In this document: in pieces, positions 2,408-50,500 of the stretch
Numbering within the stretch: position 1 is the first letter of the stretch
Layout: each line of letters starts with the position of its first letter
From: Eutreptiella sp. 'Long Island Sound 2002'
Lineage: Eukaryota > Euglenozoa > Euglenophyceae > Eutreptiales > Eutreptiaceae
Direction: 5' to 3'
DNA: 64,000 bases
Assembly: GCA_964036045.1 (NCBI GenBank)
Contig: OZ038385.1
Location: 57,507,919 to 57,571,918 of the forward strand
The notes under the pieces: generated by a model
The model's input: only the letters and a program-made list of their open reading frames with translations
Database searches by the model: none
Told to the model about the DNA's origin: nothing
Program-made: the position numbers and the translations under genes

Positions 2408-2465
2408 AGATGTGATGTGATGTGATGTGATGTGCAGCAATGCGACGCGATGCGGTGTGATGTGT
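2408..2465. repeat. TGATG-type microsatellite
   Basis: GATGTGATGTGATGTGATGTG and degenerate continuations (GCGACGCGATGCGG) form a short simple repeat just upstream of the retroelement remnant. Confidence 0.7.
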
Positions 2466-2574
2466 TGCCTTGTGTTGTAAGCCTTCGTCCACCAGGCTGT
2501 GAGTAGTGTTGAACGAACGGTGGGCAGGCATTCGTGAACGACTACATTGAAGACGGCCCGGGACCGAGCGGAAT

Positions 2575-24290: not shown

Positions 24291-24700
24291 AAAATCAGCA
24301 AAGGCCCACAAGTGGGCACATTGGCTACATAACCTCTGCCATCTCGGGGGTCCCCAACGCTTCCAAGCGGGGGACGAAATCAGCAATGGCCCACAAGTGG
24401 GGAGCGGGGGGGGGGGGGGGGTTGTTTTTTGGCGTCCGCTGTGAAGCGTTGGGGACTCCCGAGATGGCAAGGGTTATGCACCCAATGTGCCCACTTGTGG
24501 GTCACTGCTCATTTTGTCCCCGGCTCTGAAGCGTTGGGGTTATGTAGCCAATCTGCCCGCTTGTGGGCCATTGCTGATTTTGTCCCCCGTCCCCCCGCTC
24601 TGAAGCGTTGGGGACCCCCCCCCCCCAATGGCGGCGGTTGTGTAGCCAATCTGCCCATTTGAGGGCCACTGCTGACTTTATCCCCTGCTGTGAAGCGTTG
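24291..24700. repeat. Degenerate copies of the 85-bp minisatellite unit, both orientations
   Basis: The phrases GTAGCCAATCTGCCC, CTTGTGGGCCATTGCTGAT, TTTTGTCCCCC and GCTCTGAAGCGTTGGGG match the 85-bp unit that fills 34811-46260. The first part (24291-24400) is inverted (GGCCCACAAGTGGGCACATTGGCTAC); from about 24430 the copies are direct. Roughly five diverged units are recognisable, interrupted by C or G runs. Confidence 0.8.
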
Positions 24701-24707
24701 GGGTGTC

Positions 24708-24900
24708 GGACTCCCACACTTTAGCGTGGCCCCTCGAGTTGGGCTGATGGACTCCCACGCTTTGGCGTGGCCCCTAGAGTAGGGGTGATGGACTCCCACA
24801 CTTTGGCGTGGCCCTTGGAGATGGTGTGGTGGACTCCCACGCTTTGGTGTGCCCCCTTGAGTTGGGGTGATGGACTCCCACGCTTTGACAACCCCTCAAG
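24708..24900 (+). repeat. 41-bp tandem repeat, five copies
   Basis: GGACTCCCACGCTTTGGCGT-type units start at 24708, 24749, 24790, 24831 and 24872, exactly 41 bp apart; the last is partial. It lies between the 85-bp unit relics and the Ulp1-like pseudogene. Confidence 0.9.
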
Positions 24901-24949: not shown

Positions 24950-26110
24950 TCTACTAGTCGATGGAACTAAGCCTCTTGTCGTGGGAGATGGGATGATTGA
25001 CAAGGACATTATTGCGTGGCTTAACCACAAGTTGTACCATAGTGAAATCGGTGAGCCACAGGCATAGACTACAACGGTGACATACGTTGTGTCCCGCCTG
25101 AACATTATGAAGAAGTACAAAGGTGGCCAGGGAATCAGTCACACAATCGTTGGTTTGGCCTAGAGGCACCAGCAGGCACATATTTATTGTTAATAGTGAC
25201 GATTGCGAAGTGCTCCATTGGTTTGTTTGTGCCATGGATCGTAGAGTGCTAGTATGGGCCTTCAAAGTCTAGATTTGGATGCCACTTCCTGGTACTTCCT
25301 TGGTCCGGCCAATGTTGAAACGCCTCCAGCAAAACAGAGTTTCCACACATGTTCAGGCGTTGGGTTTTCACACGAATGGTTGGTCATGCAGTTTTGAATC
25401 GTTGCATCTTTGTGATGAGGTGGTTGGCCATCAGGGAAGCCTTGAGGATGTTGATGTTATCCTGGTGCCTTTGCTGAAAGGATTCATCGAGGAAGCATGG
25501 CGCATCATCAATGCGGATCGCTCCGTCCAAGTCCCTTGCACCATCCGGGAGAATGGATGGGAGGGGGAAATGAGATGCTGAAAGCCTGGAGAATCTCCTC
25601 CTGCCCTAGCCTCCCACTCTCACTCCCCGCCCCCATCTGCTTCCCCCCTCCTTTTTGACGAAGAGGACCCTCTTTTGCAACCTGAGGGCAATATTGCTAC
25701 CTCCTCCTCAGAGTCGAAAGCCGGAGAATATCTTGCCTCCTCAGGCTCCAACTTTGAGGACGTGCCCCCAAATGGGAAGTTAGTGAAGGGCAATTTTGAC
25801 CCCCCCCCCCCCCAAACAATCCTGCAATCGGCTGCTGCCTCTTCTAACCCCCCCCCCCCCCCCCCACATGTAATGACGCCCATCCATACGTGCTCATCTG
25901 TGGGAAGCGATTTGAGGTCCCCGAGGTGTACCCAGTGGCTCAGAGGGTCGGTTGGTGAACGACCAACAGCTTATTGAAGAGCTAGAAAATTACCTTGTGA
26001 AGGATATCTGTGACGCTCGTGCGCGGAACAACAATCCGCGTTCAAAGCCGAAGTCATCAAACACGAAGTCTAATCTAATTTACAAGCCCGTGTTTGCCGA
26101 CTTCTTGTAG
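24950..26110 (+). pseudogene. Ulp1/SENP-like (C48) cysteine protease pseudogene with a conserved C-terminal tail
   Basis: The order of elements is that of a Ulp1 fold. DKDIIAWLNHKLYHSEIG is the W-L-N segment, VSRLNIMKKYK follows, and IFIVNSDDCEVLHWFVCAMD holds the V-N...H-W block (His at 25216). TNGWSCSFESLHLCDEVV has the active Cys at 25387, 57 codons after the His. In-frame stops (TAG after EPQA, TAG at 25270) and at least two shifts of frame make it a pseudogene. The Asp position after the HW strand reads VWAF and the Gln before the Cys reads His, so catalytic residues also seem lost. After an acidic and Pro-rich linker interrupted by poly-C runs, a tail follows: PYVLICGKRFEVPEVYP, then in a shifted frame GRLVNDQQLIEELENY, then KSNLIYKPVFADFL and a stop at 26110. 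This tail is homologous to residues of the gene at 46388-47329. Ulp1 domains are known as cargo of several DNA transposon groups (Zisupton/KDZ, some Mutator-like elements). Confidence 0.75.
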
Positions 26111-30261: not shown

Positions 30262-33200
30262 TGCACACATGATGCAAGTGCCTCCGGTTCACGGTATCTG
30301 ACCCTCGCAATATGGACAGTGTACCGCCAGTGTTGCACAAGATTGTAGGCAAAACCACGGAGGCTCGGCATGAGTGGCTTTGAGGGTTGTCTTGTAGGTG
30401 ATTTGCCATGACATGTTGGGAGTTTTTTTTTTGTTTTGTGCAGAGTCCAAATGTTCAAAATCATGCTACATTGTGCATGTGCTGATCATGAGGTTGATGC
30501 ATAGCTGTCGGATGTTGTTCTGTGAGTGCATGCAAGCACCCCAGTGCCATATGGACATTGTACTATTGGCGTCAGAGTAGATGACATTGCAGGCCAACTC
30601 AGGCAGCATAGGATGAGAGCTCTTGTTTGATGGTTGGTAGATGATTTGCTGTTGTGATGGAGGTTTTGTGATTAATCACATGCCAAATGTCTAGGATGTG
30701 CTTGTTTGTGTGTGTGGGTGCTTTGATTTGCACTCTGCAACTCACAGCAGCTAGTCCCCAATTTACTAGCAATGTTGGTTGGGCCACTGGCCAGCACAGG
30801 CCAAGTAGGATTGGTGGCACTGCTGCTGGTTTGGTGGCCTACCACTGCTCTCAATGCAATCTTATTCAACAGTGGTGACACATTGTGCAGATGGCAAGGT
30901 CACACTACCATAAAGCTGAAGCTCTCATACACCACACAAAGTAGATTCCCTCTAAGCATTCTAGACACTTTGTGTGCGGCAGATCAATTAGTAGGATTTT
31001 GCTTTTTGACATGAGTGCCTGAGCTTCACAGCACATATAAGCCATGTATCACCAGTTTTGTGCAAGAGTATTGTACCAGTATTGTACCACAGCACTGAAC
31101 ATTTGCAGGGTTATCATGAACAGTCAAGATTGGCCTGTATGATGGTTATGTAGGTCAGATTACAGCCTCATCCATCGATTGCCTATTACTCTTGTCAATC
31201 AAAGCATCATGTTTGCATTGCAAATCACGTGTATGTGATGATGCAAGTGCCTTTGGTTCACGGTATCTGACCCTCGCAATATGGACAGTGTACCGCCAGT
31301 GTTGCACAAGATTGCAGGCAAACCATGGAGGCTCGGCATGAGTGGCTTTGAGGGTTGTTTTGTAGGTGATTTGCCATGACACGTTGGGAGTTTTTTTTTG
31401 TTTTGTGCAGAGTCCAAATGTTCAAAATTATGCTACATTGTGCATGTGCTGATCATGAGGTTGATGCATAGCTGTTGGATGTTGTTCTGTGAGTGCATGC
31501 AAGCTCCCCAGTGCCATATGGACATTGTACTATTGGCGTCAGAGTAGATGACATTGCAGGCCAACTCAGGCAGCATAGGATGAGAGCTCATGGTTGATGG
31601 TTGGTAGATGATTTGCTGTTGTGATGGAGGTTTTGTGATTAATCACATGCCAAATGTCTAGGATCTGCTTGTTTGTTTGTGTTAGTGCTTTGATTTGCAC
31701 TCTGCAACTCACAGCAGCTAGTCCCCAATATACTAGCAATGTTGGTTGGGCCACTGGCCAGCACAGGCCAAGTAGGATTGGTGGCACTGCTGGTGGTTTG
31801 GTGGCCTACCACTGCTCTCAATGCAATCTTATTCAACAGTGGTGACACATTGTGCAGATGGCAAGGTCACTGTACCATAAAGCTGAAGCTCTCATACACG
31901 ACACAAAGTAGATTCCCTCTAAGCATTCTAGACACTTTGTGTGCGGCAGATCAATTAGTAGGATTTTGCTTTTTGACATTAGTGCCTGAGCTTCACAGCA
32001 CATATAAGCCATGTATCACCAGTTTTGTGCAAGAGTATTGTACCAGTATTGTACCACAGCACTGAACATTTGCAGGGTTATCATGAACAGTCAAGATTGG
32101 CCTGTATGATGGTTATGTAGGTCACATTACAGCCTCATCCATCGATTGCCTATTACTCTTGTCAATCAAAGCATCATGTTTGCATTGCAAATCACGTGTA
32201 TGTGATGATGCAAGTGCCTCCGGTTCACGGTATCTGACCCTCGCAACATGGACAGTGTACCGCCAGTGTTGCACAAGATTGCAGGCAAACCATGGAGGCT
32301 CGGCATGAGTGGGTTTGAGGGTTGTTTTGTAGGTGATTTGCCATGACATGTTGGGAGTTTTTTTTTTGTTTTGTGCAGAGTCCAAATGTTCAAAATCATG
32401 CTACATTGTGCATGTGCTGATCATGAGGTTGATGCATAGCTGTTGGATGTTGGTTGTTCTGTGAGTGCATGCAAGCTCCCCAGTGCCATATGGACATTGT
32501 ACTATTGGCATCAGAGTAGATGACATTGCAGGCCAACTCAGGCAGCATAGGATGAGAGCTCATGTTTGATGGTTGGTAGATGATTTGCTGTTGTGATGGA
32601 GGTTTTGTGATTAATCACATGCCAAATGTCTAGGATGTGCTTGTTTGTGTGTGTGGGTGCTTTGATTTGCACTCTGCAACTCACAGCAGCTAGTCCCCAA
32701 TATACTAGCAATGTTGGTTGGGCCACTGGCCAGCACAGGCCAAGTAGGATTGGTGGCACTGCTGGTGGTTTGGTGGCCTACCACTGCTCTCAATGCAATC
32801 TTATTCAACAGTGGTGACACATTGTGCAGATGGCAAGGTCACTGTACCATAAAGCTGAAGCTCTCATACACGACACAAAGTAGATTCCCTCTAAGCATTC
32901 TAGACACTTTGTGTGCGGCAGATCAATTTGTTGGATTTTGCTTTTTGACATTAGTGCCTGAGCTTCACAGCACATATAAGCCATGTATCACCAGTTTTGT
33001 GCAAGAGTATTGTACCAGTATTGTACCACAGCACTGAACATTTGCAGGGTTATCATGAACAGTCAAGATTGGCCTGTATGATGGTTATGTAGGTCAGATT
33101 ACAGCCTCATCCATCGATTGCCTATTACTCTTGTCAATCAAAGCATCATGTTTGCATTGCAAATTGCGTGTATGTGATGATGCAAGTGCCTCCGGTTCAC

Positions 33201-34585
33201 GGTATCTGACCCGCGCAATATGGACAGTGTACCGCCAGTGTTGCACAAGATTGCAGGCAAACCATGGAGGCTCGGCATGAGTGGCTTTGAGGGTTGTTTT
33301 GTAGGTGATTTGCCATGACACGTTGGGAGTTTTTTTTTTGTTTTGTGCAGAGTCCAAATGTTCAAAATCATGCTACATTGTGCATGTGCTGATCATGAGG
33401 TTGATGCATAGCTGTTGGATGTTGTTCTGTGAGTGCATGCAAGCACCCCAGTGCCATATGGACATTGTACTATTGGCGTCAGAGTAGATGACATTGCAGG
33501 CCAACTCAGGCAGCATAGGATGAGAGCTCATGGTTGATAGTTGGTAGATGATTTGCTGTTGTGATGGAGGTTTGGTGATTAATCACATGCCAAATGTCTA
33601 GGATGTGCTTGTTTGTGTTAGTGCTTTGATTTGCACTCTGCAACTCACAGCAGCTAGTCCCCAATATACTAGCAATGTTGGTGGTTGGGCCACTAGCCAG
33701 CACAGGCCAAGTAGGATTGGTGGCACTGCTGGTGGTTTGGTGGCCTACCACTGCTCTCAATGCAATCTTATTCAACAGTGGTGACACATTGTGCAGATGG
33801 CAAGGTCACTGTACCATAAAGCTGAAGCTCTCATACACCACACAAAGTAGATTCCCTCTAAGCATTCTAGACACTTTGTGTGCGGCAGATCAATTAGTAG
33901 GATTTCGCTTTTTGACATTAGTGCCTGAGCTTCACAGCACATATAAGCCATGTATCACCAGTTTTGTGCAAGAGTATTGTACCAGTATTGTACCACAGCA
34001 CTGAACATTTGCAGGGTTATCATGAACAGTGAAGATTGGCCTGTATGATGGTTATGTAGGTCAGATTACAGCCTCATCCATCGATTGCCTATTACTCTTG
34101 TCAATCAAAGCATCATGTTTGCATTGCAAATCACGTGTATGTGATGATGCAAGTGCCTTTGGTTCACGGTATCTGACCCTCGCAATATGGACAGTGTACC
34201 GCCAGTGTTGCACAAGATTGCAGGCAAACCATAGAGGCTCGGCATGAGTGGCTTTGAGGGTTGTTTTGTAGGTGATTTGCCATGACACGTTGGGAGTTTT
34301 TTTTTTGTTTTGTGCAGAGTCCAAACGTTCAAAATTATGCTACATTGTGCATGTGCTGATCATGAGGTTGATGCATAGCTGTTGGATGTTGGTCTGTGAG
34401 TGCATGCAAGCTCCCCAGTGCCATATGGACATTGTGCTATTGGCGTCAGAGTAGATGACATTGCAGGCCAACTCAGGCAGCATAGGATGAGAGCTCATGT
34501 TTGATGGTTGGTAGATGATTTGCTGTTGTGATGGAGGTACAGCTAGGATTGGTGGCACAGCTGGTGGTTTGGTGTCCTACCACTG
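30262..34585 (+). repeat. 966-bp satellite array, left part (about 4.4 units)
   Basis: Units of about 966-973 bp are repeated head to tail; the landmark GATGCAAGTGCC recurs near 30268, 31237, 32205, 33178 and 34144. Each unit holds a T8-T9 tract followed by GTTTTGTGCAGAGTC, the 12-bp palindrome GTGATTAATCAC, a doubled GTATTGTACCA and CAGCACATATAAGCC. Open frames of 60-108 codons recur in both strands but overlap and shift with indels, so they are by-products of homogenised repeats. The last unit has lost about 135 bp (between GATGGAGGT and TAGGATTGG) and is then cut at CCTACCACTG by the 12.97-kb insertion. Confidence 0.95.
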
Positions 34586-34593
34586 GGTCTGTA

Positions 34594-34810
34594 GTGAAAC
34601 CTAGTAAAAAATTTTTTTTCCCAAAAAAATTTTTTTACTAGGTAACAGCTTACTAGGTAACACGTTTTTTTACTAGGTATTGGGAACCTAGTAAAAAAAA
34701 AAGTTTTTTTTTTACTAGGTTTCAAAACCTAGTAAAAAAAAATTGTAAAATTTTTTTTTTTGGTTTTTACTAGGTTTCAGAACCTGGTAAAATTATTACT
34801 AGGTTACTGG
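34594..34810. repeat. Left subterminal ACTAGGT palindromes
   Basis: The words CCTAGTAAAA and TTTTACTAGG alternate in both orientations about nine times, separated by A/T runs. They form several potential hairpins (AACCTAGTAAAAAA / TTTTTTACTAGGTT). The block ends with ACTAGGTTACTGGG directly before the minisatellite. Such subterminal repeats are commonly transposase-binding sites; for this element that is an inference. Confidence 0.85.
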
Positions 34811-37800
34811 GTAGCCACCTTGCCCACTTGTGGGCCACTTCTGATTTTGCCCCCCGCTCTGAAGCGGTGGGGCTCCCCGATACGGCAGGGGTGAGGTAGC
34901 CACTTTGCCCATTTGTGGGCCACTTCTGATTTTGCGCCCCGCTGTGCAGCGGTGGGGCTCCCCGATACGGCAGGGGTGAGGTAGCCAATTTGCCCACTTG
35001 TGGGCCACTTCTGATTTTGCCCCCCGCTCTGCAGCGGTGGGGCTCCCCGATACGGCAGGGGTGAGGTAGCCAATTTGCCCACTTGTGGGCCACTTCTGAT
35101 TTTGCCCCCCGCTCTGAAGCGGTGGGGCTCCCCGATACGGCAGGGGTGAGGTAGCCACTTTGCCCACTTGTGGGCCACTTCTGATTTTGCCCCCCGCTCT
35201 GCAGCGGTGGGGCTCCCCGATACGGCAGGGGTGAGGTAGCCACTTTGCCCACTTGTGGGCCGGTTCTGATTCTGCCCCCCGCTCTGCAGCGGTGGGGATC
35301 CCCGATACGGCAGGGGTGAGGTAGCCACTTCGCCCACTTGTGGGCCACTTCTGATTTTGCCCCCCGCTCTGCAGCGGTGGGGATCCCCGATACGGCAGGG
35401 GTGAGGTAGCCACTTTGCCCACTTGTGGGCCACTTCTGATTTTGCCCCCCGCTCTGCAGCGGTGGGGCTCCCCGATACGGCAGGGGTGAGGTAGCCACTT
35501 TGCCCACTTGTGGGCCACTTCTGATTTTGCCCCCCGCTCTGCAGCGGTGTGGATCCCCGATACGGCAGGGGTGAGGTAGCCACTTTGCCCACTTGTGGGC
35601 CACTTCTGATTTTGCCCCCCGCTCTGCAGCGGTGGGGATCCCCGATACGGCAAGGGTGAGGTAGCCAATTTGCCCACTTGTGGGCCACTTCTGATTCTGC
35701 CCCCCGCTCTGCAGCGGTGGGGATCCCCGATACGGCAGGGGTGAGGTAGCCAATTTGCCCACTTGTGGGCCACTTCTGATTTTGCCCCCCGCTCTGCAGC
35801 GGTGGGGCTCCCCGATACGGCAGGAGTGAGGTAGCCACTTTGCCCATTTGTGGGCCACTTCTGATTCTGCCCCCCGCTCTGCAGCGGTGGGGATCCCCGA
35901 TACGGCAGGGGTGAGGTAGCCAATTTGCCCACGTGTGGGCCACTTGTGATTCTGCCCCCCGCTCTGCAGCGGTGGGGCTCCCCGATACGGCAGGGGTGAG
36001 GTAGCCAATTTGCCCACTTGTGGGCCACTTCTGATTTTGCCCCCCGCTCTGCAGCGGTGGGGCTCCCCGATACGGCAGGGGTGAGGTAGCCACTTTGCCC
36101 ACTTGTGGGCCACTTCTGATTTTGCCCCCCGCTCTGAAGCAGTGGGGCTCCCCGATACGGCAGGGGTGAGGTAGCCACTTTGCCCACTTGTGGGCCACTT
36201 CTGATTCTGCCCCCCGCTCTGCAGCGGTGGGGCTCCCCGATACGGCAAGGGTGAGGTAGCCAATTTGCCCACTTGTGGGCCACTTCTGATTTTGCCCCCC
36301 GCTCTGCAGCGGTGGGGCTCCCCGATACGGCAGGGGTGAGGTAGCCACTTCGCCCACTTGTGGGCCAGTTCTGATTCTGCCCCCCGCTCTGCAGCGGTGG
36401 GGCTCCCTGATACGGCAGGGGTGAGGTAGCCAATTTGCCCACTTGTGGGCCAGTTCTGATTCTGCCCCCCGCTCTGCAGCGGTGGGGATCCCCGATACAA
36501 CAGGGGTGAGGTAGCCAATTTGCCCACTTGTGGGCCACTTCTGATTCTGCCCCCCGCTCTGCAGCGGTGGGGCTCCCCGATACGGCAGGGGTGAGGTAGC
36601 CAATTTGCCCACTTGTGGGCCACTTCTGATTTTGTCCCCCGCTCTGCAGCGGTGGGGCTCCCCGATACGGCAGGGGTGAGGTAGCCAATTTGCCCACTTG
36701 TGGGCCACTTCTGATTTTGCCCCCCGCTCTGCAGCGGTGGGGCTCCCCGATACGGCAGGGGTGAGGTAGCCAATTTGCCCACTTGTGGGCCACTTCTGAT
36801 TCTGCCCCCCGCTCTGCAGCGGTGGGGCTGCCCGATACGGCAGGGGTGAGGTAGCCAATTTGCCCACTTGTGGGCCACTTCTGATTTTGCCCCCCGCTCT
36901 GCAGCACTGGGGATCCCCGATACGGCAGGGGTGAGGTAGCCACTTTGCCCACTTGTGGGCCACTTCTGATTTTGCCCCCCGCTCTGCAGCGGTGGGGATC
37001 CCCGATACGGCAGGGGTGAGGTAGCCACTTTGCCCACTTGTGGGCCACTTCTGATTTTGCCCCCCGCTCTGCAGTGGTGGGGCTCCCCGATACGGCAGGG
37101 GTGAGGTAGCCACTTCGCCCACTTGTGGGCCACTTCCGATTCTGCCCCCCGCTCTGCAGCGGTGGGGATCCCCGTTACGGCAGGGGTGAGGTAGCCAATT
37201 TGCCCACTTGTGGGCCACTTCTGATTCTGCCCCCCGCTCTGCAGCGGTGGGGCTCCCCGATACGGCAGGGGTGAGGTAGCCAATTTGCCCACTTGTGGGC
37301 CACTTCTGATTTTGCCCCCCGCTCTGAAGTAGTGGGGCTCCCCGATACGGCAGGGGTGAGGTAGCCACTTTGCCCACTTGTGGGCCACTTCTGATTTTGC
37401 CCCCCGCTCCGCAGCGGTGGGGTTCCCCGATACGGCAGGGGTGAGGTAGCCACTTTGCCCACTTGTGGGCCACTTCTGATTTTGCCCCCCGCTCTGCAGT
37501 GGTGGGGCTCCCTGATACGGCAGGGGTGAGGTAGCCAATTTGCCCACTTGTGGGCCACTTCTGATTCTGCCCCCCGCTCTGCAGCGGTGGGGATCCCCGA
37601 TACAACAGGGGTGAGGTAGCCAATTTGCCCACTTGTGGGCCACTTCTGATTCTGCCCCCCGCTCTGCAGCGGTGGGGCTCCCCGATACGGCAGGGGTGAG
37701 GTAGCCAATTTGCCCACTTGTGGGCCACTTCTGATTTTGTCCCCCGCTCTGCAGCGGTCGGGCTCCCCGATACGGCAGGGGTGAGGTAGCCAATTTGCCC

Positions 37801-40800
37801 ACTTGTGGGCCACTTCTGATTTTGCCCCCCGCTCTGCAGCGGTGGGGCTCCCCGATACGGCAGGGGTGAGGTAGCCACTTTGCCCACTTGTGGGCCACTT
37901 CTGATTCTGCCCCCCGCTCTGCAGCGGTGGGGCTGCCCGATACGGCAGGGGTGAGGTAGCCAATTTGCCCACTTGTGGGCCACTTCTGATTTTGCCCCCC
38001 GCTCTGCAGCACTGGGGATCCCCGATACGGCAGGGGTGAGGTAGCCACTTCGCCCACTTGTGGGCCACTTCCGATTCTGCCCCCCGCTCTGCAGCGGTGG
38101 GGATCCCCGATACGGCAGGGGTGAGGTAGCCACTTTGCCCACTTGTGGGCCACTTCTGATTTTGCCCCCCGCTCTGCAGTGGTGGGGCTCCCCGATACGG
38201 CAGGGGTGAGGTAGCCACTTCGCCCACTTGTGGGCCACTTCCGATTCTGCCCCCCGCTCTGCAGCGGTGGGGATCCCCGTTACGGCAGGGGTGAGGTAGC
38301 CAATTTGCCCACTTGTGGGCCACTTCTGATTCTGCCCCCCGCTCTGCAGCGGTGGGGCTCCCCGATACGGCAGGGGTGAGGTAGCCAATTTGCCCACTTG
38401 TGGGCCACTTCTGATTTTGCCCCCCGCTCTGAAGTAGTGGGGCTCCCCGATACGGCAGGGGTGAGGTAGCCACTTTGCCCACTTGTGGGCCACTTCTGAT
38501 TTTGCCCCCCGCTCCGCAGCGGTGGGGTTCCCCGATACGGCAGGGGTGAGGTAGCCACTTTGCCCACTTGTGGGCCACTTCTGATTTTGCCCCCCGCTCT
38601 GCAGTGGTGGGGCTCCCTGATACGGCAGGGGTGAGGTAGCCAATTTGCCCACTTGTGGGCCAGTTCTGATTCTGCCCCCCGCTCTGAAGCGGTGGGGATC
38701 CCCGATACAACCGGGGTGAGGTAGCCAATTTGCCCACTTGTGGGCCACTTCTGATTCTGCCCCCCGCTCTGCAGCGGTGGGGCTCCCCGATACGGCAGGG
38801 GTGAGGTAGCCAATTTGCCCACTTGTGGGCCACTTCTGATTTTGTCCCCCGCTCTGCAGCGGTGGGGCTCCCCGATACGGCAGGGGTGAGGTAGCCAATT
38901 TGCCCACTTGTGGGCCACTTCTGATTTTGCCCCCCGCTCTGCAGCGGTGGGGCTCCCCGATACGGCAGGGGTGAGGTAGCCACTTTGCCCACTTGTGGGC
39001 CACTTCTGATTCTGCCCCCCGCTCTGCAGCGGTGGGGATCCCCGATACGGCAGGGGTGAGGTAGCCACTTTGCCCACTTGTGGGCCACTTCTGATTTTGC
39101 CCCCCGCTCTGCAGTGGTGGGGCTCCCCGATACGGCAGGGGTGAGGTAGCCACTTCGCCCACTTGTGGGCCACTTCCGATTCTGCCCCCCGCTCTGCAGC
39201 GGTGGGGATCCCCGTTACGGCAGGGGTGAGGTAGCCAATTTGCCCACTTGTGGGCCACTTCTGATTCTGCCCCCCGCTCTGCAGCGGTGGGGCTCCCCGA
39301 TACGGCAGGGGTGAGGTAGCCAATTTGCCCACTTGTGGGCCACTTCTGATTTTGCCCCCCGCTCTGAAGTAGTGGGGCTCCCCGATACGGCAGGGGTGAG
39401 GTAGCCACTTTGCCCACTTGTGGGCCACTTCTGATTTTGCCCCCCGCTCCGCAGCGGTGGGGTTCCCCGATACGGCAGGGGTGAGGTAGCCACTTTGCCC
39501 ACTTGTGGGCCACTTCTGATTTTGCCCCCCGCTCTGCAGTGGTGGGGCTCCCTGATACGGCAGGGGTGAGGTAGCCAATTTGCCCACTTGTGGGCCAGTT
39601 CTGATTCTGCCCCCCGCTCTGAAGCGGTGGGGATCCCCGATACAACCGGGGTGAGGTAGCCAATTTGCCCACTTGTGGGCCACTTCTGATTCTGCCCCCC
39701 GCTCTGCAGCGGTGGGGCTCCCCGATACGGCAGGGGTGAGGTAGCCAATTTGCCCACTTGTGGGCCACTTCTGATTTTGTCCCCCGCTCTGCAGCGGTGG
39801 GGCTCCCCGATACGGCAGGGGTGAGGTAGCCAATTTGCCCACTTGTGGGCCACTTCTGATTTTGCCCCCCGCTCTGCAGCGGTGGGGCTCCCCGATACGG
39901 CAGGGGTGAGGTAGCCACTTTGCCCACTTGTGGGCCACTTCTGATTCTGCCCCCCGCTCTGCAGCGGTGGGGCTGCCCGATACGGCAGGGGTGAGGTAGC
40001 CAATTTGCCCACTTGTGGGCCACTTCTGATTTTGCCCCCCGCTCTGCAGCACTGGGGATCCCCGATACGGCAGGGGTGAGGTAGCCACTTTGCCCACTTG
40101 TGGGCCACTTCTGATTTTGCCCCCCGCTCTGCAGCGGTGGGGATCCCCGATACGGCAGGGGTGAGGTAGCCACTTTGCCCACTTGTGGGCCACTTCTGAT
40201 TTTGCCCCCCGCTCTGCAGTGGTGGGGCTCCCCGATACGGCAGGGGTGAGGTAGCCACTTCGCCCACTTGTGGGCCACTTCCGATTCTGCCCCCCGCTCT
40301 GCAGCGGTGGGGATCCCCGTTACGGCAGGGGTGAGGTAGCCAATTTGCCCACTTGTGGGCCACTTCTGATTCTGCCCCCCGTTCTGCAGCGGTAGGGCTC
40401 CCCGATACGGCAGGGGTGAGGTAGCCAATTTGCCCACTTGTGGGCCACTTCTGATTCTGCCCCCCGCTCTGCAGCGGTGGGGCTCCCCGATACGGCAGGG
40501 GTGAGGTAGCCACTTTGCCCACTTGTGGGCCACTTCTGATTTTGCCCCCCGCTCTGCAGCGGTCGGGCTCCCCGATACGGCAGGGGTGAGGTAGCCACTT
40601 TGCCCACTTGTGGGCCACTTCTGATTTTGCCCCCCGCTCTGAAGCGGAGGGGATCCCCGATACGGCAGGGGTGAGGTAGCCAATTTGCCCACTTGTGGGC
40701 CACTTCTGATTTTGCCCCCCGCTCTGCAGCGTTGGGCTTCCCGATACGGCAGGGGTGAGGTAGCCAATATGCCCACTTGTGGGCCACTTCTGATTCTGCC

Positions 40801-43800
40801 CCCCGCTCTGCAGCGCTGGGGCTCCCCGATACGGCAGGGGTGAGGTAGCCACTTTGCCCACTTGTGGGCCACTTCTGATTTTGCCCCCCGCTCTGAAGCG
40901 GTGGGGCTCCCCGATACGGCAGGGGTGAGGTAGCCACTTCGCCCACTTGTGGGCCGATTCTGATTTTGCCCCCCGCTCTGCAGCGGTGGGGATCCCCGAT
41001 ACGGCAGGGGTGAGGTAGCCAATTTGCCCACTTGTGAGCCACTTCTGATTTTGCCCCCCGCTCTGAAGCCGAGGGGCTCCCCGATACGGCAGGGGTGAGG
41101 TAGCCAATTTGCCCACTTGTGGGCCACTTCTGATTCTGCCCCCCGCTCTGCAGCGGTGGGGATCCCCGATACGGCAGGGGTGAGGTAGCCAATTTGCCCA
41201 CTTGTGGGCCACTTCTGATTCTGCCCCCCGCTCTGCAGCGGTGGGGCTCCCCGATACGGCAGGGGTGAGGTAGCCACTTTGCCCACTTGTGGGCCACTTC
41301 TGATTTTGCCCCCCGCTCTGAAGCAGTGGGGCTCCCGGATACGGCAGGGGTGAGGTAGCCACTTTGCCCACTTGTGAGCCACTTCTGATTTTGCCCCCCG
41401 CTCTGCAGCGGTATGGTTCCCCGATACGGCAGGGGTGAGGTAGCCACTTTGCCCACTTGTGGGCCAGTTCTGATTCTGCCCCCCGCTCTGCAGCGGTGGG
41501 GATCCCCGATACGGCAGGGGTGAGGTAGCCAATTTGCCCACTTGTGGGCCACTTGTGATTCTGCCCCCCGCTCTGCAGCGGTGGGGCTCCCCGATACGGC
41601 AGGGGTGAGGTAGCCAATTTGCCCACTTGTGGGCCACTTCTGATTTTGCCCTCCGCTCTGCAGCGGTGGGGCTCCCCGATACGGCAGGGGTGAGGTAGCC
41701 ACTTCGCCCACTTGTGGGCCACTTCTGATTTTGCCCCCCGCTCTGCAGCGGTGGGGCTCCCAGATACGGCAGGGGTGAGGTAGCCACTTTGCCCACTTGT
41801 GAGCCACTTCTGATTTTGCCCCCCGCTCTGCAGCGGTATGGTTCCCCGATACGGCAGGGGTGAGGTAGCCACTTTGCCCACTTGTGGGCCACTTCTGATT
41901 TTGCCCCCCGCTCTGCAGTGGTGGGGCTCCCCGATACGGCAGGGGTGAGGTAGCCAATTTGCCCACTTGTGGGCCAGTTCTGATTCTGCCCCCCGCTCTG
42001 CAGCGGTGGGGATCCCCGATACGGCAGGGGTGAGGTAGCCAATTTGCCCACTTGTGGGCCACTTCTGATTCTGCCCCCCGCTCTGCAGCGGTGGGGCTCC
42101 CCGATACGGCAGGGGTGAGGTAGCCAATTTGCCCACTTGTGGGCCACTTCTGATTTTGCCCCCCGCTCTGCAGCGGTGGGGCTCCCCGATACGGCAGGGG
42201 TGAGGTAGCCACTTCGCCCACTTGTGGGCCACTTCTGATTTTGCCCCCCGCTCTGCAGCGGTGGGGCTCCCCGATACGGCAGGGGTGAGGTAGCCACTTT
42301 GCCCACTTGTGGGCCACTTCTGATTCTGCCCCCCGCTCTGAAGCGGAGGGGATCGCCGATACGGCAGGGGTGAGGTAGCCAATTTGCCCACTTGTGGGCC
42401 ACTTCTGATTTTGCCCCCCGCTCTGAAGCGGTGGGGCTCCCGGATACGGCAGGGGTGAGGTAGCCACTTTGCCCACTTGTGGGCCACTTCTGATTTTGCC
42501 CCCCGCTCTGCAACGCTGGGGCTCCCGGATACGGCAGGGGTGAGGTAGCCAATTTGCCCACTTGTGGGTCACTTCTGATTTTGCCCCCCGCTCTGCAGCG
42601 GTGGGGCTCCCCGATACGGCAGGGGTGAGGTAGCCACTTTGCCCACTTGTGGGCCACTTCTGATTTTGCCCCCCGCTCTGCAGCGGTGGGGCTCCCCGAT
42701 ACGGCAGGGGTGAGGTAGCCACTTCGCCCACTTGTGGGCCACTTCTGATTTTGCCCCCCGCTCTGCGGCGGTGGGGCTCCCCGATACGGCAAGGGTGAGG
42801 TAGCCAATTTGCCCACTTGTGGGCCGATTCTGATTTTGCCCCCCGCTCTGCAGCGGTGGGGCTCCCCGATACGGCAGGGGTTAGGTAGCCACTTCGCCCA
42901 CTTGTGGGCCACTTCTGATTTTGCCCCCCGCTCTGCAGCGGTGGGGCTCCCCGATACGGCAGGGGTGAGGTAGCCACTTTGCCCACTTGTGGGCCACTTC
43001 TGATTTTGCCCCCCGCTCTGCAGCGGTGGGGTTCCCCGATACGGCAGGGGTGAGGTAGCCACTTCGCCCACTTGTGGGCCACTTCTGATTTTGCCCCCCG
43101 CTCTGCAGCGGTGGGGCTCCCCGATACGGCAGGGGTGAGGTAGCCACTTTGCCCACTTGTGGCCCACTTCTGATTTTGCCCCCCGCTCTGCAGTGGTGGG
43201 GCTCCCCGATATGGCAGGGGTGAGGTAGCCAATTTGCCCACTTGTGGGCCACTTCTGATTCTGCCCCCCGCTCTGCAGCGGTGGGGATCCCCGATACGGC
43301 AGGGGTGAGGTAGCCACTTCGCCCACTTGTGGGCCACTTCTGATTTTGCCCTCCGCTCTGCAGCGGTGGGGCTCCCAGATACGGCAGGGGTGAGGTAGCC
43401 ACTTCGCCCACTTGTGGGCCACTTCTGATTTTGCCCCCCGCTCTGCAGCGGTGGGGCTCCCCGATACGGCAGGGGTGAGGTAGCCACTTTGCCCACTTGT
43501 GGGCCACTTCTGATTTTGCCCCCCGCTCTGCAGCGGTGGGGATCCCCGATACGGCAGGGGTGAGGTAGCCACTTTGCCCACTTGTGGGCCACTTCTGATT
43601 CTGCCCCCCGCTCTGCAGCGGTGGGGATCCCCGATACGGCAGGGGTGAGGTAGCCAATTTGCCCACTTGTGGGCCACTTCTGATTCTGCCCCCCGCTCTG
43701 CAGCGGTGGGGCTCCCCGATACGGCAGGGGTGAGGTAGCCAATTTGCCCACTTGTGGGCCACTTCTGATTTTGCCCCCCGCTCTGCAGCGGTGGGGCTCC

Positions 43801-46260
43801 CCGATACGGCAGGGGTGAGGTAGCCAGTTCGCCCACTTGTGGGCCACTTCTGATTTTGCCCCCCGCTCTGCAGCGGTGGGGCTCCCAGATACGGCAGGGG
43901 TGAGGTAGCCACTTTGCCCACTTGTGGGCCACTTCTGATTTTGCCCCCCGCTCTGCAGCGGTATGGTTCCCCGATACGGCAGGGGTGAGGTAGCCAATTT
44001 GCCCACTTGTGAGCCACTTCTGATTTTGCCCCCCGCTCTGCAGCGGTATGGTTCCCCGATACGGCAGGGGTGAGGTAGCCACTTTGCCCACTTGTGAGCC
44101 ACTTCTGATTTTGCCCCCCGCTCTGCAGCGGTATGGTTCCCCGATACGGCAGGGGTGAGGTAGCCAATTTGCCCACTTGTGGGCCACTTCTGATTTTGCC
44201 CCCCGCTCTGCAGTGGTGGGGCTCCCCGATACGGCAGGGGTGAGGTAGCCAATTTGCCCACTTGTGGGCCAGTTCTGATTCTGCCCCCCGCTCTGCAGCG
44301 GTGGGGCTCCCCGATACGGCAGGGGTGAGGTAGCCACTTTGCCCACTTGTGAGCCACTTCTGATTTTGCCCCCCGCTCTGCAGCGGTATGGTTCCCCGAT
44401 ACGGCAGGGGTGAGGTAGCCACTTTGCCCACTTGTGGGCCACTTCTGATTTTGCCCCCCGCTCTGCAGCGGTATGGTTCCCCGATACGGCAGGGGTGAGG
44501 TAGCCAATTTGCCCACTTGTGAGCCACTTCTGATTTTGCCCCCCGCTCTGCAGCGGTATGGTTCCCCGATACGGCAGGGGTGAGGTAGCCACTTTGCCCA
44601 CTTGTGAGCCACTTCTGATTTTGCCCCCCGCTCTGCAGCGGTATGGTTCCCCGATACGGCAGGGGTGAGGTAGCCAATTTGCCCACTTGTGGGCCACTTC
44701 TGATTTTGCCCCCCGCTCTGCAGTGGTGGGGCTCCCCGATACGGCAGGGGTGAGGTAGCCAATTTGCCCACTTGTGGGCCAGTTCTGATTCTGCCCCCCG
44801 CTCTGCAGCGGTGGGGATCCCCGATACGGCAGGGGTGAGGTAGCCAATTTGCCCACTTGTGGGCCACTTCTGATTCTGCCCCCCGCTCTGCAGCGGTGGG
44901 GCTCCCCGATACGGCAGGGGTGAGGTAGCCAATTTGCCCACTTGTGGGCCACTTCTGATTTTGCCCCCCGCTCTGCAGCGGTGGGGCTCCCCGATACGGC
45001 AGGGGTGAGGTAGCCACTTCGCCCACTTGTGGGCCACTTCTGATTTTGCCCCCCGCTCTGCAGCGGTGGGGCTCCCCGATACGGCAGGGGTGAGGTAGCC
45101 ACTTTGCCCACTTGTGGGCCACTTCTGATTCTGCCCCCCGCTCTGAAGCGGAGGGGATCGCCGATACGGCAGGGGTGAGGTAGCCAATTTGCCCACTTGT
45201 GGGCCACTTCTGATTTTGCCCCCCGCTCTGAAGCGGTGGGGCTCCCGGATACGGCAGGGGTGAGGTAGCCACTTTGCCCACTTGTGGGCCACTTCTGATT
45301 TTGCCCCCCGCTCTGCAACGCTGGGGCTCCCGGATACGGCAGGGGTGAGGTAGCCAATTTGCCCACTTGTGGGTCACTTCTGATTTTGCCCCCCGCTCTG
45401 CAGCGGTGGGGCTCCCCGATACGGCAGGGGTGAGGTAGCCACTTTGCCCACTTGTGGGCCACTTCTGATTTTGCCCCCCGCTCTGCAGCGGTGGGGCTCC
45501 CCGATACGGCAGGGGTGAGGTAGCCACTTCGCCCACTTGTGGGCCACTTCTGATTTTGCCCCCCGCTCTGCGGCGGTGGGGCTCCCCGATACGGCAAGGG
45601 TGAGGTAGCCAATTTGCCCACTTGTGGGCCGATTCTGATTTTGCCCCCCGCTCTGCAGCGGTGGGGCTCCCCGATACGGCAGGGGTGAGGTAGCCACTTT
45701 GCCCACTTGTGGGCCACTTCTGATTTTGCCCCCCGCTCTGCAGCGGTGGGGATCCCCGATACGGCAGGGGTGAGGTAGCCACTTTGCCCACTTGTGGGCC
45801 ACTTCTGATTCTGCCCCCCGCTCTGCAGCGGTGGGGCTCCCCGATACGGCAGGGGTGAGGTAGCCACTTTGCCCACTTGTGAGCCACTTCTGATTTTGCC
45901 CCCCGCACTGCAGCGGTGGGGATCCCCGATACGGCAGGGGTGAGGTAGCCAATTTGCCCACTTGTGGGCCACTTCTGATTTTGCCCCCCGCTCTGCAGTG
46001 GTGGGGCTCCCCGATACCGCGGGTGAGGTAGCCAATTTGCCCACTTGTGGGCCACTTCTGATTCTGCCCCCCGCTCTGCAGCGGTGGGGCTCCCCGATAC
46101 GGCAGGGGTGAGGTAGCCACTTCGCCCACTTGTGGGCCATTTCTGATTCTGCCCCCCGCTCTGCAGCGGTGGGGCTCCCCGATACGGCAGGGGTGAGGTA
46201 GCCACTTTGCCCACTTGTGGGCCACTTCTGATTTTGCTCCCCGCTCTGCAGCGTCGGGGG
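34811..46260. repeat. 85-bp minisatellite array, about 135 copies, 11.45 kb
   Basis: The unit runs GTAGCCAATTTGCCCACTTG, TGGGCCACTTCTGATT, a TGCCCCCCGCTCTGCAGC block, GGTGGGGCTCCCCGATACGG and CAGGGGTGAG, 85 bp in all, head to tail. Copies differ at a limited set of positions (CCAATTTG/CCACTTTG/CCACTTCG, ATTTTG/ATTCTG, GGGCTCC/GGGATCC, GAAGC/GCAGC). One unit near 40730 lacks 1 bp, and one near 46017 (GATACCGCGGGTG) lacks several bases. The minus strand has no stop codon in any frame across most of the array, giving open frames up to 3778 codons. Because 85 is not a multiple of three, such a frame cycles through all three readings with a period of 85 residues. I treat it as non-coding. Confidence 0.97.
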
Positions 46261-46350
46261 TTTCGGAACCTAGTAAAAAAAAAGTTTTTGTTTTTACTAG
46301 GTTTTAGAACCTAGTGAAAACAAAAGTTTTTTTTTTACTAGGTTACTGGG
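46261..46350. repeat. Internal ACTAGGT palindrome block
   Basis: GGAACCTAGTAAAA, TTTTACTAGGTTTTAGAACC, TAGTGAAAAC and TTTTACTAGGTTACTGGG lie between the minisatellite and the gene. The ACTAGGTTACTGGG end is the same as the one that precedes the minisatellite on its left, so the array is bracketed by copies of one sequence. Confidence 0.85.
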
Positions 46351-46387
46351 CCTCCCCTTTTTCCTTTTGCACTTCGTGTTTGCAACA

Positions 46388-47329
46388 ATGTCCTCCAAGC
46401 AAAGCTCTGCGGAAGGCACTGAGGCAGGCACGAAGAAATCGGGCACGGATGACACCCTCTACTCCACCTTCCTACATCAGGACGACGGTGTGAGCTGCCA
46501 TCCTGCCTACCTTCTGATGCTACATTGCCTTTTGTCTAGGCGTGTTGTCAACGGTAGCATCCAACTTCCACAAGACAGATTGTGGTTGTTGCGTGAGATT
46601 GCACAGGCAGCTTTGCACTATCGCAGTTCTCCGCCTGCCCCCCCTTTTGAGACCACACGCAGTTGGGCCTTGGCACGGATGTATGCTACGCCCTATTGTT
46701 CACCCAGCCGTTCGTCGTGCTTTTTTTGCGACGACATAGCCCACATCACGTGCCCTAAATGTGGAGTTTATCAGTGTGCCCTGCATGCTTCCGGTTTCTG
46801 TTCCACGGAGATATGTGTGGCATTGCGCAAATGGAGAGTGCAATTTACTGCCACACTGGCATGCATTGTGTTGGCATTCGCCTTGGGTGACCGGCTTGTG
46901 GTTGACAAGCCGCCTTCTGTAGATGAGGTCCGTCCAAAGGTGGTGATCCGTGGTGAAGAATTTTTTGTTCCAGAGCATTACCCCAAACATGCCTGTGGGA
47001 GATTGGAGTATGACAAAAATCTAATCAAAGAGTTGGAAGAAAAGACCACGGGCGTGATTCGCAACATGTGCAAGCACAACCCTCCCTCTGCACAACCCAC
47101 CTACAAAGACAAGAAGTCGGACCTCATCTACAAGCGCGTGTTTTGCGACTTCATATTAAGCACACGTGTATGCACCTCATATATGTATATATATATTTAT
47201 CATATAAAAGCTCCTTCTTTTCTTGAGCCTCATTTTATTTTTGCTGACCTTGCAATACACGGTTTGGCCCGGGTGGGGCGCCACTTACACAAGTGGCCTG
47301 GAATAGACCAGGGGGCACCATGCCCTTAA
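46388..47329 (+). CDS. Element-borne Cys-rich protein, 313 aa
   Basis: The first ATG of the frame (ACAATGTCC) lies 38 bp after the palindrome block. The N-terminal part is hydrophilic (SSKQSSAEGTEAGTKKSGTDD). A middle part (YLLMLHCLLSRRVVNG, then RLWLLREIAQAALHY) is helical. A Cys cluster follows: CFFCDD, then CPKCGVYQCALHASGFCSTE (C-x2-C-x7-C-x2-C-x4-C-x2-H), similar in spacing to HIT-type fingers and to the C-terminal Cys-rich domains of piggyBac-like transposases. A hydrophobic stretch (TATLACIVLAFALGD) precedes the C-terminal part, RPKVVIRGEEFFVPEHYP, GRLEYDKNLIKELEEK and KSDLIYKRVFCDFI, which matches the tail of the Ulp1-like pseudogene at 25888-26110. The last 55 or so residues, after FIL, look like read-through, because the related copy stops there. 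No DDE triad or Ulp1 domain was seen. Role unknown; likely an accessory or truncated transposition protein. Confidence 0.65.
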   Translation: MSSKQSSAEGTEAGTKKSGTDDTLYSTFLHQDDGVSCHPAYLLMLHCLLSRRVVNGSIQLPQDRLWLLREIAQAALHYRSSPPAPPFETTRSWALARMYATPYCSPSRSSCFFCDDIAHITCPKCGVYQCALHASGFCSTEICVALRKWRVQFTATLACIVLAFALGDRLVVDKPPSVDEVRPKVVIRGEEFFVPEHYPKHACGRLEYDKNLIKELEEKTTGVIRNMCKHNPPSAQPTYKDKKSDLIYKRVFCDFILSTRVCTSYMYIYIYHIKAPSFLEPHFIFADLAIHGLARVGRHLHKWPGIDQGAPCP

Positions 47330-47554
47330 ACATAAATACCACCTACCGTTGACCCCCCCCCCCCCCCATAAACTTGGTTTTTTTTGTTCAAATTCAAGTC
47401 CAAATTTGTAAATACCTAGTAACCTAGTAAAAAAAAATTTTTTTAAAAAAATTTTTTAAAAAAAATTTTTTTACTAGGTTTTGCTACATTGTACTAGGTT
47501 TTGCTACATTTTACTAGGTTTTGCTACGTGCATACTAGGTTTCACCAAATGCCC
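47330..47554. repeat. Right subterminal and terminal region of the element
   Basis: A poly-C run (47345-47367) is followed by ACCTAGTAACCTAGTAAAAA, a long A/T palindrome (47430-47475), and then four direct copies of ACTAGGTTTTGCTAC or ACTAGGTTTCAC before the end GCCC at 47554. The ACTAGGTTTTGCTACATT phrase is a short tandem repeat of about 21 bp, not present at the left end. Confidence 0.8.
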
Positions 47555-50500
47555 CCTACCACTGCTCTCAATGCAATCTTATTCAACAGTGGTGACACAT
47601 TGTGCAGATGGCAAGGTCACTGTACCATAAAGCTGAAGCACTCATACACGACACAAAGTAGATTCCCTCTAAGCACCCTAGACACTTTGTGTGCGGCAGA
47701 TCAATTAGTAGGATTTTGCTTTTTGACATTAGTGCCTGAGCTTCACAGCACATATAAGCCATGTATCACCAGTTTTGTGCAAGAGTATTGTACCAGTATT
47801 GTACCACAGCACTGAACATTTGCAGGGTTATCATGAACAGTCAAGATTGGCCTGTATGATGGTTATGTAGGTCAGATTACAGCCTCATCCATCGATTGCC
47901 TATTACTCTTGTCAATCAAAGCATCATGTTTGCATTGCAAATCACGTGTATGTGATGATGCAAGTGCCTCCGGTTCACGGTATAGTGTACCGCCAGTGTT
48001 GCACAAGATTGCAGGCAAACCATGAAGGCTCGTCATGATGATTTGTCCGCATTTGGGCGCCATGTGTGCACTGCACACCAAGTTTCTGTGATGATGCAAG
48101 TGCCTCCGGTTCACGGTATCTGAACCTCGCAATATGGACAGTGTACCGCCAGTGTTGCACAAGATTGCAGGCAAACCACGGAGGCTCGGCATGAGTGGAT
48201 TTGAGGGTTGTCTTGTAGGTGATTTGCCATGACACGTTGGGAGTTTTTTTTTTGTTTTGTGCAGAGTCCAAACGTTCAAAATCATGCTACATTGTGCATG
48301 TGCTGATCATGAGGTTGATGCATAGCTGTTGGATGTTGTTCTGTGAGTGCATGCAAGCTCCCCAGTGCCATATGGACATTGTACTATTGGCGTCAGAGTA
48401 GATGACATTGCAGGCCAACTCAGGCAGCATAGGATGAGAGCTCATGTTTGATGGTTGGTAGATGATTTGCTGTTGTGATGGAGGTTTTGTGATTAATCAC
48501 ATGCCAAATGTCTAGGATGTGCTTGTTTGTGTTAGTGCTTTGATTTGCGCTCTGCAACTCACAGCAGCTAGTCCCCAATATACTAGCAATGTTGGTTGGG
48601 CCACTGGCCAGCACAGGCCAAGTAGGATTGGTGGCACTGCTGGTGGTTTGGTGGCCTACCACTGCTCTCAATGCAATCTTATTCAACAGTGGTGACACAT
48701 TGTGCAGATGGCAAGGTCACTGTACCATAAAGCTGAAGCTCTCATACACCACACAAAGTAGATTCCCTCTAAGCGTTCTAGACACTTTGTGTGCGGCAGA
48801 TCAATTAGTAGGATTTTGCTTTTTGACATTAGTGCCTGAGCTTCACAGCACGTATAAGCCATGTATCACCAATTTTGTGCAAGAGTATTGTACCAGTATT
48901 GTACCACAGCACTGAACATTTGCAGGGTTATCATGAACAGTCAAGATTGGCCTGTATGATGGTTATGTAGGTCAGATTACAGCCTCATCCATCCATTGCC
49001 TATTACTCTTGTCAATCAAAGCATCATGTTTGCATTGCAAATCACGTGTATGTGATGATGCAAGTGCCTCCGGTTCACGGTATCTGACCCTCGCAACATG
49101 GACAGTGTACCGCCAGTGTTGCACAAGATTGCAGGCAAACCATGGAGGCTCGGCATGAGTGGCTTTGAGGGTTGTTTTGTAGGTGATTTGCCATGACACG
49201 TTGGGAGTTTTTTTTTTGTTTTGTGCAGATTCCAAATGTTCAAAATCATGCTACATTGTGCATGTGCTGATCATGAGGTTGATGCATAGCTGTTGGATGT
49301 TGTTCTGTGAGTGCATGCAAGCTCCCCAGTGCCATATGGACATTGTACTATTGGCGTCAGACTAGATGACATTGCAGGCCAACTCAGGCAGCATAGGATG
49401 AGAGCTCATGTTTGATGGTTGGTAGATGATTTGCTGTTGTGATGGAGGTTTTGTGATTAATCACATGCCAAATGTCTAGGATGTGCTTGTTTGTGTTAGT
49501 GCTTTGATTTGCACTCTGCAACTCACAGCAGCTAGTCCCCAATATACTAGCAATGTTGGTTGGGCCACTGGCCAGCACAGGCCAAGTAGGATTGGTGGCA
49601 CTGCTGGTGGTTTGGTGGCCTACCACTGCTCTCAATGCAATCTTATTCAACAGTGGTGACACATTGTGCAGATGGCAAGGTCACTGTACCATAAAGCTGA
49701 AGCTCTCATACACCACACAAAGTAGATTCCCTCTAAGCATTCTAGACACTTTGTGTGCGGCAGATCAATTAGTTGGATTTTGCTTTTTGACATTAGTGCC
49801 TGAGCTTCACAGCACATATAAGCCATGTATCACCAGTTTTGTGCAAGAGTATTGTACCAGTATTGTACCACAGCACTGAACATTTGCAGGGTTATCATAA
49901 ACAGTCAAGATTGGCCTGTATGATGGTTATGTAGGTCAGATTACAGCCTCATCCATCGATTGCCTATTACTCTTGTCAATCAAAGCATCATGTTTGCATT
50001 GCAAATTGCGTGTATGTGATGATGCAAGTGCCTCCGGTTCACGGTATCTGACCCTCGCAACATGGACAGTGTACCGCCAGTGTTGCACAAGATTGTAGGC
50101 AAACCCCGGAGGCTGGGCATGAGTGGCTTTGAGGGTTGTTTTGTAGGTGATTTGCCATGACACGTTGGGAGTTTTTTTTTGTTTTGTGCGGAGTCCAAAT
50201 GTTCAAAATCATGCTACATTGTGCATGTGCTGATCATGAGGTTGATGCATAGCTGTTGGATGTTGTTCTGTGAGTGCATGCAAGCTCCCCAGTGCCATAT
50301 GGACATTGTACTATTGGCGTCAGAGTAGATGACATTGCAGGCCAACTCAGGCAGCATAGGATGAGAGCTCATGTTTGATGGTTGGTAGATGATTTGCTGT
50401 TGTGATGGAGGTTTTGTGATTAATCACATGCCAAATGTCTAGGATGTGCTTGTTTGTGTTAGTGCTTTGATTTGCACTCTGCAACTCACAGCAGCTAGTC

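Follow-up and report, generated by a model that had tools for sequence, protein, structure and literature searches.

In a 64,000-nucleotide stretch of genomic DNA (the window, meaning the whole stretch analysed), a ~967-bp satellite is interrupted by 12,970 bp, and the question that this locus raises is whether the interruption is a mobile unit and, if so, of which kind. We find that the insertion is a member of a large, young, dispersed transposon family. The family is probably MULE-like and non-autonomous, being mobilised in trans, with an internal array that changes in length and short-array copies that are deletion derivatives.

The insertion and its target site

The target satellite has a unit of 964-972 bp and lies on the forward strand on both sides of the insertion, at 30268-34575 on the left and from 47564 to the window end (64000) on the right. 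The insertion occupies 34585-47554 and is bracketed by a 9-bp target site duplication, CCTACCACT, at 34576-34584, with its identical copy at 47555-47563. The original prediction had recognised an insertion flanked by a repeated word at 34576-47564; its limits are corrected here because GGG starts all 20 copies of the element that we read, and the tenth base of the word, G, is assigned to the element as its own first base. With this shared G, the duplication can be read one to two bases longer in the window copy and in four others. The empty site is present in the same window, since CCTACCACTG occurs 20 times within it, twice bracketing the element and 18 times in the unbroken context tggtttggtggCCTACCACTGctctcaatg. 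Both the predicted insertion into a satellite array and the suggestion that empty sites might be found in other satellite units are thus borne out. The left flank is an imperfect satellite unit, since the unit at 33744-34575 is ~135 bp short and the base preceding the left duplication is t, not g.

The inserted copy (forward strand, GGGTCTGTAG...AAATGCCC) shares its boundaries with every other copy for which both ends are in reach but L023, in which the right end is altered. Its terminal inverted repeats are GGGTCTGTAGTGAAACCTAGTA (34585-34606, forward strand) and TACTAGGTTTCACCAAATGCCC (47533-47554, reverse strand); GGGTCTGTAGTGAAACCTAGTA and GGGCATTTGGTGAAACCTAGTA agree by eye at 18 of 22 positions, and the ends are of the GGG...CCC type. 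Inverted ends had been correctly predicted, but the shared block that was called terminal (GTGAAACCTAGTA/TACTAGGTTTCAC) lies subterminally, from the tenth base inward at each end, and the nine bases outside it, GGGTCTGTA and GGGCATTTG, agree at five of nine. Internally, the copy consists of subterminal A/T-rich palindromic repeats with a 41-bp unit (AACCTAGTA...TACTAGGTT, 34594-34809), an 85-bp minisatellite on the forward strand (34810-46253), a second block of the 41-bp palindromic repeats that closes the array (46259-46350), as it does in L012, L017, L021, L022 and L024, a gene remnant with an ATG frame (46388-47329, forward strand), and right subterminal palindromic and 20-bp repeats (47414-47545). 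The ACTAGGT palindromes noted earlier are confirmed, the first 225 bp holding nine ACTAGGT/ACCTAGT words where shuffled sequence averages 0.014. So is the array of 135 copies: TRF reports 134.7 copies of the 85-bp unit with 95% matches, 132 of the 134 spacings among 135 anchors are exactly 85 bp, and pairwise unit identity is 95.1%. The array accounts for 11,444 of the 12,970 bp, or 88% of the element, as had been estimated.

A dispersed family of copies

A search of the genome that carries the element yielded 1,224 candidate left ends, of which 40 were scored and 20 of those 40, including the window copy, were read. All 20 copies open with GGGTCTGTAGTGAAACC and share their first 26 bp, save for one base in one copy. 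The left boundary is sharp, since element bases agree in 19-20 of 20 copies over 26 columns and flank bases in 6-10 of 20. The order of left end, palindromic repeats and 85-bp minisatellite is the same in every copy, with the left palindromic block matched in all 20.

Sixteen copies have both ends in reach; the right ends of L013, L016, L019 and L024 could not be judged. Identical 9-bp duplications flank 14 of the 16 (L009-L012, L014, L015, L017, L018, L020, L022, L025-L027 and the window copy), so that 13 of the 15 other both-ended copies have them, with a sequence that differs between loci. The duplication copies of L021 differ solely in the length of a poly-C run, and L023 lacks its final bases at the right end and has no duplication. 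Of the 16 right ends reached, 15 carry the right terminal repeat and L023 differs; because the 15 were located by requiring their last 17 bp to match exactly, they are alike partly by construction. L017 and L024, 31.6 kb apart and with one common duplication sequence, are treated as a single insertion copied by segmental duplication. Further pairs of these ends with flanking duplications, which had been proposed as a check, thus exist, contrary to what the stated refutation would require, and mobility of the element as a unit, previously inferred, is supported by the recurrence of the same ends and array, and nearly always gene sequence, at many loci with different flanks and identical 9-bp duplications.

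Array length and the protease-motif gene

The array stands in one place and one orientation behind the left end in all 20 copies, with from 2.9 to more than 231 units, and the notion that it is confined to the window was rejected. That the minisatellite arose from other parts of the element was also rejected, since matches between them, searched at E up to 1, do not exceed 11 bp. Exact stretches are duplicated inside the window array, one spanning 1,009 bp at an offset of 2,805 and another 965 bp at an offset of 935. Among 737 units from 10 copies, a comparison that omits L024 and copies with fewer than eight such units, 68% of best-matching units come from the same copy, compared with 16% when labels are shuffled; units are on average 0.941-0.973 identical within copies, which is only slightly more than between copies (0.953). 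The exact duplications and the same-copy matches suggest that the array may grow and shrink in place, via unequal exchange, slippage or gap repair.

Copies that keep the array-closing block (n = 6) have 29.4 to 134.7 units and those without it (n = 12) between 2.9 and 24.9, so that the two groups do not overlap; L017 and L024 are counted separately here, although we treat them as a single insertion. Ten of the 12 block-less copies have the minisatellite running directly into the gene or the stretch just past it, and half of these 10 array-to-gene joints have no microhomology. The separation in size and the position of the joints are consistent with imperfect gap repair, which would remove stretches from inside the array into the gene and so yield short copies.

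We note that the 85-bp repeat has a diverged relative beyond the element, in both orientations at 24286-24703, and that a diverged relic of the same gene follows 1.2 kb downstream of it at 25860-26107. The association thus looks old; a search for the ends of this older relic at 24-26 kb found none.

Of the 18 copies read as far as the end of the array, 17 have gene sequence behind it, and L026 retains solely the stretch after the frame. The window copy had been described as carrying one gene; gene sequence is indeed there, but as the 3′ remnant of a longer gene. Positions 46457-47155 are homologous to the 3′ part of an Ulp1/C48-motif family and include its Q, C and Cys-rich region, ~2 kb of upstream sequence is absent between ~46442 and 46455, and the frame continues beyond the point where L022 and many homologues stop. 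The gene is 5′-truncated in all copies but L022, the fullest copy (10,818 bp), in which one long open frame encodes a protease-motif, zinc-finger-like protein of 747 aa. The catalytic order His, Asp, Gln, Cys is present in homologues (H-W, D-P, Q...C): in a 10-sequence alignment H220 and D240 are invariant, Q300 is conserved in at least 90%, and C306 in 8 of 10, with Tyr in its place in P0087 and that stretch missing from P0030. The window copy retains Q and C alone. The Q-to-C spacing of 6 is that of yeast Ulp1, and by its motif the family is classed as putatively Ulp1/C48-like. Pfam searches of the window frame and homologues gave nothing above cut-off for the gene and no C48 match, PDB gave no significant match by sequence, and structural comparison with the Ulp1 fold showed only a weak likeness. 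An AlphaFold model of P0058 had a pLDDT of 38.9. No gene relatives were confirmed in viral contigs.

The gene family is very large, with P0178 standing for 110 sequences and P0179 for 175. The largest matching gene segments of 14 copies contain no in-frame stop; L020 has a compensated pair of one-base indels and L012 a 30-bp deletion. Over 78 non-independent pairs from 13 of the 14 segments (L009 is too short), mean dN is 0.0164 and mean dS 0.0133, a dN/dS of ~1.2 that is based on few changes. This ratio and the widespread 5′ truncation are as expected of a passenger, and we take the gene to be one.

Superfamily, alternative explanations and known relatives

MULEs make target site duplications of 9-11 bp, and most members have terminal inverted repeats. 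The set of copies described here has such inverted ends (18 of 22 by eye) and, immediately next to them, nine identical duplicated bases in 14 of 16 cases, plus L021 with its poly-C difference and L023 with none. MULE transposases are abundant in the genome: all 150 hits scored exceed the Pfam cut-off, two of them have an inner stop, and open frames reach 1,068 aa. No Pfam transposase was found in the first 605 aa of the L022 frame or in its 575-aa homologue P0178, and no copy with both these ends and a MULE transposase was found among the 40 left ends compared with 133 of the 150 hits, the nearest pair being 56 kb apart; the superfamily assignment thus rests on duplication length and general plan. 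The supply of open MULE frames suggests that transposases encoded elsewhere in the genome could move the family in trans by cut-and-paste. The window copy would then be a long-array member that lost ~2 kb round the 5′ part of its gene and landed in a satellite unit. A more speculative reading, which we consider doubtful, makes the array a working part of the transposon life cycle and no mere ballast: the mobile form would be satellite-sized, reaching more than 19 kb and consisting mostly of repeat, and its array would grow where it stands, travel to new sites and serve as a landing zone for post-excision repair. Elements of this kind might seed satellite DNA around the genome, and the protease-like protein might permit this by acting, at arrays or ends, on chromatin or SUMO.

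Several alternatives bear on this assignment. It is unlikely that the insertion and its duplication, real as they are, belong to another superfamily, such as Merlin, which makes 8-9-bp duplications, or other 8-9-bp groups, or that no living transposase is left; no transposase has been tied to these ends, but the nine identical bases in nearly all both-ended copies and the abundant open MULE frames argue against it. Distinctly unlikely is an autonomous family, and a new superfamily, moved by its own product, with the L022 protein as an unrecognised transposition enzyme or part of one. Its single long frame with no Pfam transposase, the size of the gene family and the stop-free segments would suit such an enzyme, whereas the dN/dS and truncation fit a passenger, H-D-Q-C is the motif of a protease and not of a DDE enzyme, and MULE transposases are plentiful.

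That the minisatellite is a separate repeat, present in the element by accident, is very unlikely: its diverged relative outside the element speaks for this, but that relative lies just upstream of the gene relic, and the array keeps its place and orientation in every copy read. Least credible is an assembly join, with an array pasted beside unrelated satellite and a chance duplication. Long arrays are hard to assemble and the left satellite unit is short; against this, both ends recur elsewhere in the genome beside different sequence, copies of 0.9 to 4 kb with short arrays keep the same part order and identical duplications, and the window copy's left end, at one of the junctions in doubt, matches the others up to the same base. 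With the ends recurring and the duplications seen at other loci, this explanation was rejected.

The proposed non-autonomous MULE-like family has parallels in described systems. Rehavkus, in the portion of PMC6446971 that treats it, is MULE-related with a 9-bp duplication, terminal inverted repeats, a minisatellite before the 3′ end and a transposase with a PHD finger, and has arthropod and annelid hosts. The present family shares the duplication length, the inverted repeats and a minisatellite near one end; it differs in that no transposase was found in the element and in that the array separates the left end from the gene and reaches more than 231 units. In all 20 copies the array is at one end, upstream of the gene, a 3′ end being definable only with a transposase. 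Kaonashi (KI) MULEs of Arabidopsis, as outlined in PMC2528002, are likewise high-copy and carry a ULP cysteine-protease domain, in reverse orientation, where ours has an Ulp1/C48-like motif; they are non-TIR plant elements, from which our family departs by its inverted ends, and that outline mentions no minisatellite. Tetris of Drosophila virilis, a foldback element, is summarised in PMC4079207 as having ~220-bp repeats within long inverted repeats and no apparent coding capacity, unlike the single long array between left end and gene seen here. A Porphyromonas gingivalis MITE, as characterised in part of PMC4596501, also has an internal minisatellite but is a bacterial miniature element. To call the insertion an undescribed element type, as originally proposed, was therefore too strong, because a 9-bp duplication fits MULEs and both minisatellite-bearing and ULP-bearing MULEs are described; a categorically new type is weakened by Rehavkus, KI-MULEs and Tetris. 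The present family itself, or a minisatellite and ULP-type gene together with an array of this size, was not found in the open-licence literature.

The copies form a natural series of one transposon (20 read, 1,224 first-look candidates) that varies mainly in array length and gene truncation, most having a clean insertion site. The birth and spread of satellites by mobile elements, and internal deletion during DNA transposon repair, are therefore testable in one genome. The family also adds this large, protist-like, possibly euglenid, genome to the hosts of minisatellite-bearing MULE-like elements. Rfam and tRNA scans of the 64-kb window returned no matches; the window also encodes a leucine-rich-repeat protein.

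A dispersed element family with an internal minisatellite

The original prediction placed a 12.97-kb insertion in the satellite, flanked by a duplication and made up of an inverted block shared by both ends, a minisatellite of 135 copies and one gene. Every one of these features is present in the sequence, and the element is a member of a real, dispersed, multicopy family. Searching its own genome for the left end yielded 1,224 first-look candidates; 40 were scored, and 20 of the 40 were read, including the window copy. The left end is followed by the subterminal palindromic repeats (41-bp-unit A/T-rich blocks) and then by the 85-bp minisatellite in all 20 copies, with neither order nor orientation changing. 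Coding sequence of the gene, of the Ulp1/C48-motif family, is kept behind the array in 17 of the 18 copies whose array end was reached; in the other, L026, only the stretch after the gene's frame remains there. End-to-end length ranges from 947 to 12,970 bp (15 values).

The minisatellite holds 134.7 units in the window copy, 3.0 in L009, 3.7 in L010, 8.2 in L011, 98.6 in L012, 14.3 in L013, 9.0 in L014, 4.0 in L015, more than 231 in L016 (an array of more than 19 kb), 4.8 plus 30.8 in L017, 3.6 in L018, more than 113 in L019, 2.9 in L020, 108.6 in L021, 84.4 in L022, 13.8 in L023, 29.4 in L024, 24.9 in L025, 3.4 in L026 and 8.3 in L027. The L017 array is split by an insert at about 738-6592 that contains 13 copies of a 319-bp satellite, and its sister copy L024 is without this insert. 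We note that in L013 a 195-bp satellite (38 copies, 2573-10000) lies directly after the gene, at the expected place of the right end.

Element ends and the insertion site

At the left end, all 20 copies agree over the first 26 bp save for one base in one copy, and the flanks vary. Because all copies start with GGG, we place the window element at 34585-47554 (12,970 bp), with a 9-bp target duplication, CCTACCACT; the 13-bp inverted block first taken for its termini does exist, albeit subterminally and not as the outermost sequence. An alternative reading makes the duplication 1-2 bases longer in the window copy, L010, L011, L014 and L015, since the base that follows it is also G. Both ends could be reached in 16 copies, and identical 9-bp duplications flank 14 of them; L013, L016, L019 and L024 are outside this count. 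In L021, which sits in a poly-C run, the two duplication copies differ in run length only, and L023, which has lost the final bases of its right end, is without a duplication. The left ends of L017, L024 and a third copy lie at 31.6-kb spacing (G000 C15:20478639, 20510258 and 20541923). The same duplication sequence flanks the two that were read, L017 and L024, which are therefore taken as one insertion; all three probably go back to a single insertion that was copied within a tandem segmental duplication.

The satellite, with a unit of 964-972 bp, spans 30268 to the insertion and resumes after it up to the window end. Of the 20 occurrences of the word CCTACCACTG in the window, two are at the junctions and 18 lie within unbroken satellite context, so that the window holds its own empty sites. 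The adjoining unit at 33744-34575 falls short of its neighbors by about 135 bp, with the deficit just left of the target site, and a simple insertion does not account for this missing stretch. Some longer units (1,100 and 1,277 bp) are also included in 30268-64000, and these seem to contain additional internal copies of a stretch of about 153 bp.

Array dynamics

The arrays change in place. In a comparison of 737 units from 10 copies, leaving out L024 and copies with fewer than eight such units, the best-matching unit lies in the same copy in 68% of cases, versus 16% with shuffled labels, and within the window array stretches of 1,009 bp and 965 bp are exactly duplicated; both observations point to change within the array. 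Mean identity among the 132 window units of exactly 85 bp is 95.1%. Units of one copy are, however, only slightly more alike on average (0.941 to 0.973) than units of different copies (0.953).

A second palindromic block closes the array in six copies (L012, L017, L021, L022, L024 and the window copy), whose arrays range from 29.4 to 134.7 units; those of the 12 copies without it range from 2.9 to 24.9. The minisatellite abuts the gene directly (in L026, the stretch just after the gene) in 10 of these 12, at 10 different positions, and microhomology of 1 to 4 bp is seen at five of the 10 joints and is absent from the other five. In L020 and L027 the joint contains other sequence. The most economical interpretation is that copies began with long arrays, and that short arrays are deletion derivatives with the left breakpoint inside the array. 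The window copy retains its array end and has lost about 2 kb around the 5′ part of the gene.

Relatives and a candidate transposase

Diverged relatives of the minisatellite, in both orientations, are found at 24286-24703, and a diverged relic of the 3′ end of the same gene at 25860-26107 (best piece in the window frames, E 5e-11 with profile A1 and 5e-7 with profile A2). The pairing of repeat and gene therefore looks older than the young family, and the two may be what is left of an earlier element with this plan; a search for element ends around them found none. Directly after the old minisatellite relatives is a 41-bp tandem repeat (4.7 copies, 24697-24887).

Rehavkus is related to Mutator-like elements (MULEs) and has 9-bp duplications and a minisatellite before its 3′ end (PMC6446971), and Kaonashi MULEs carry a ULP domain (PMC2528002). 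The present family combines the minisatellite and 9-bp duplication of Rehavkus with a gene that resembles the Kaonashi ULP domain by motif only; its array lies between the left end and the gene and exceeds 19 kb in L016. Literature searches among open-licence papers found none describing this family.

From the 9-bp duplication and the element plan, we infer that a MULE transposase moves the element in trans. The genome contains 150 scored MULE transposase matches out of 739 candidates, every one above the Pfam cut-off, with an inner stop in two and frames of up to 1,068 aa. No match lies less than 56 kb from any left end, as compared for 133 of the 150 against the 40 left ends. Four matches at an exact spacing of 2,946 bp (G000 C2:10452318, 10455264, 10458210 and 10461156) form a tandemly repeated transposase unit, and another cluster, of 13 matches, lies at G000 C16:6.45-6.82 Mb. 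Elsewhere in the window, 5215-7278 is a 687-aa open frame built of leucine-rich repeats; it has two relatives named with the prefix EG_transcript.
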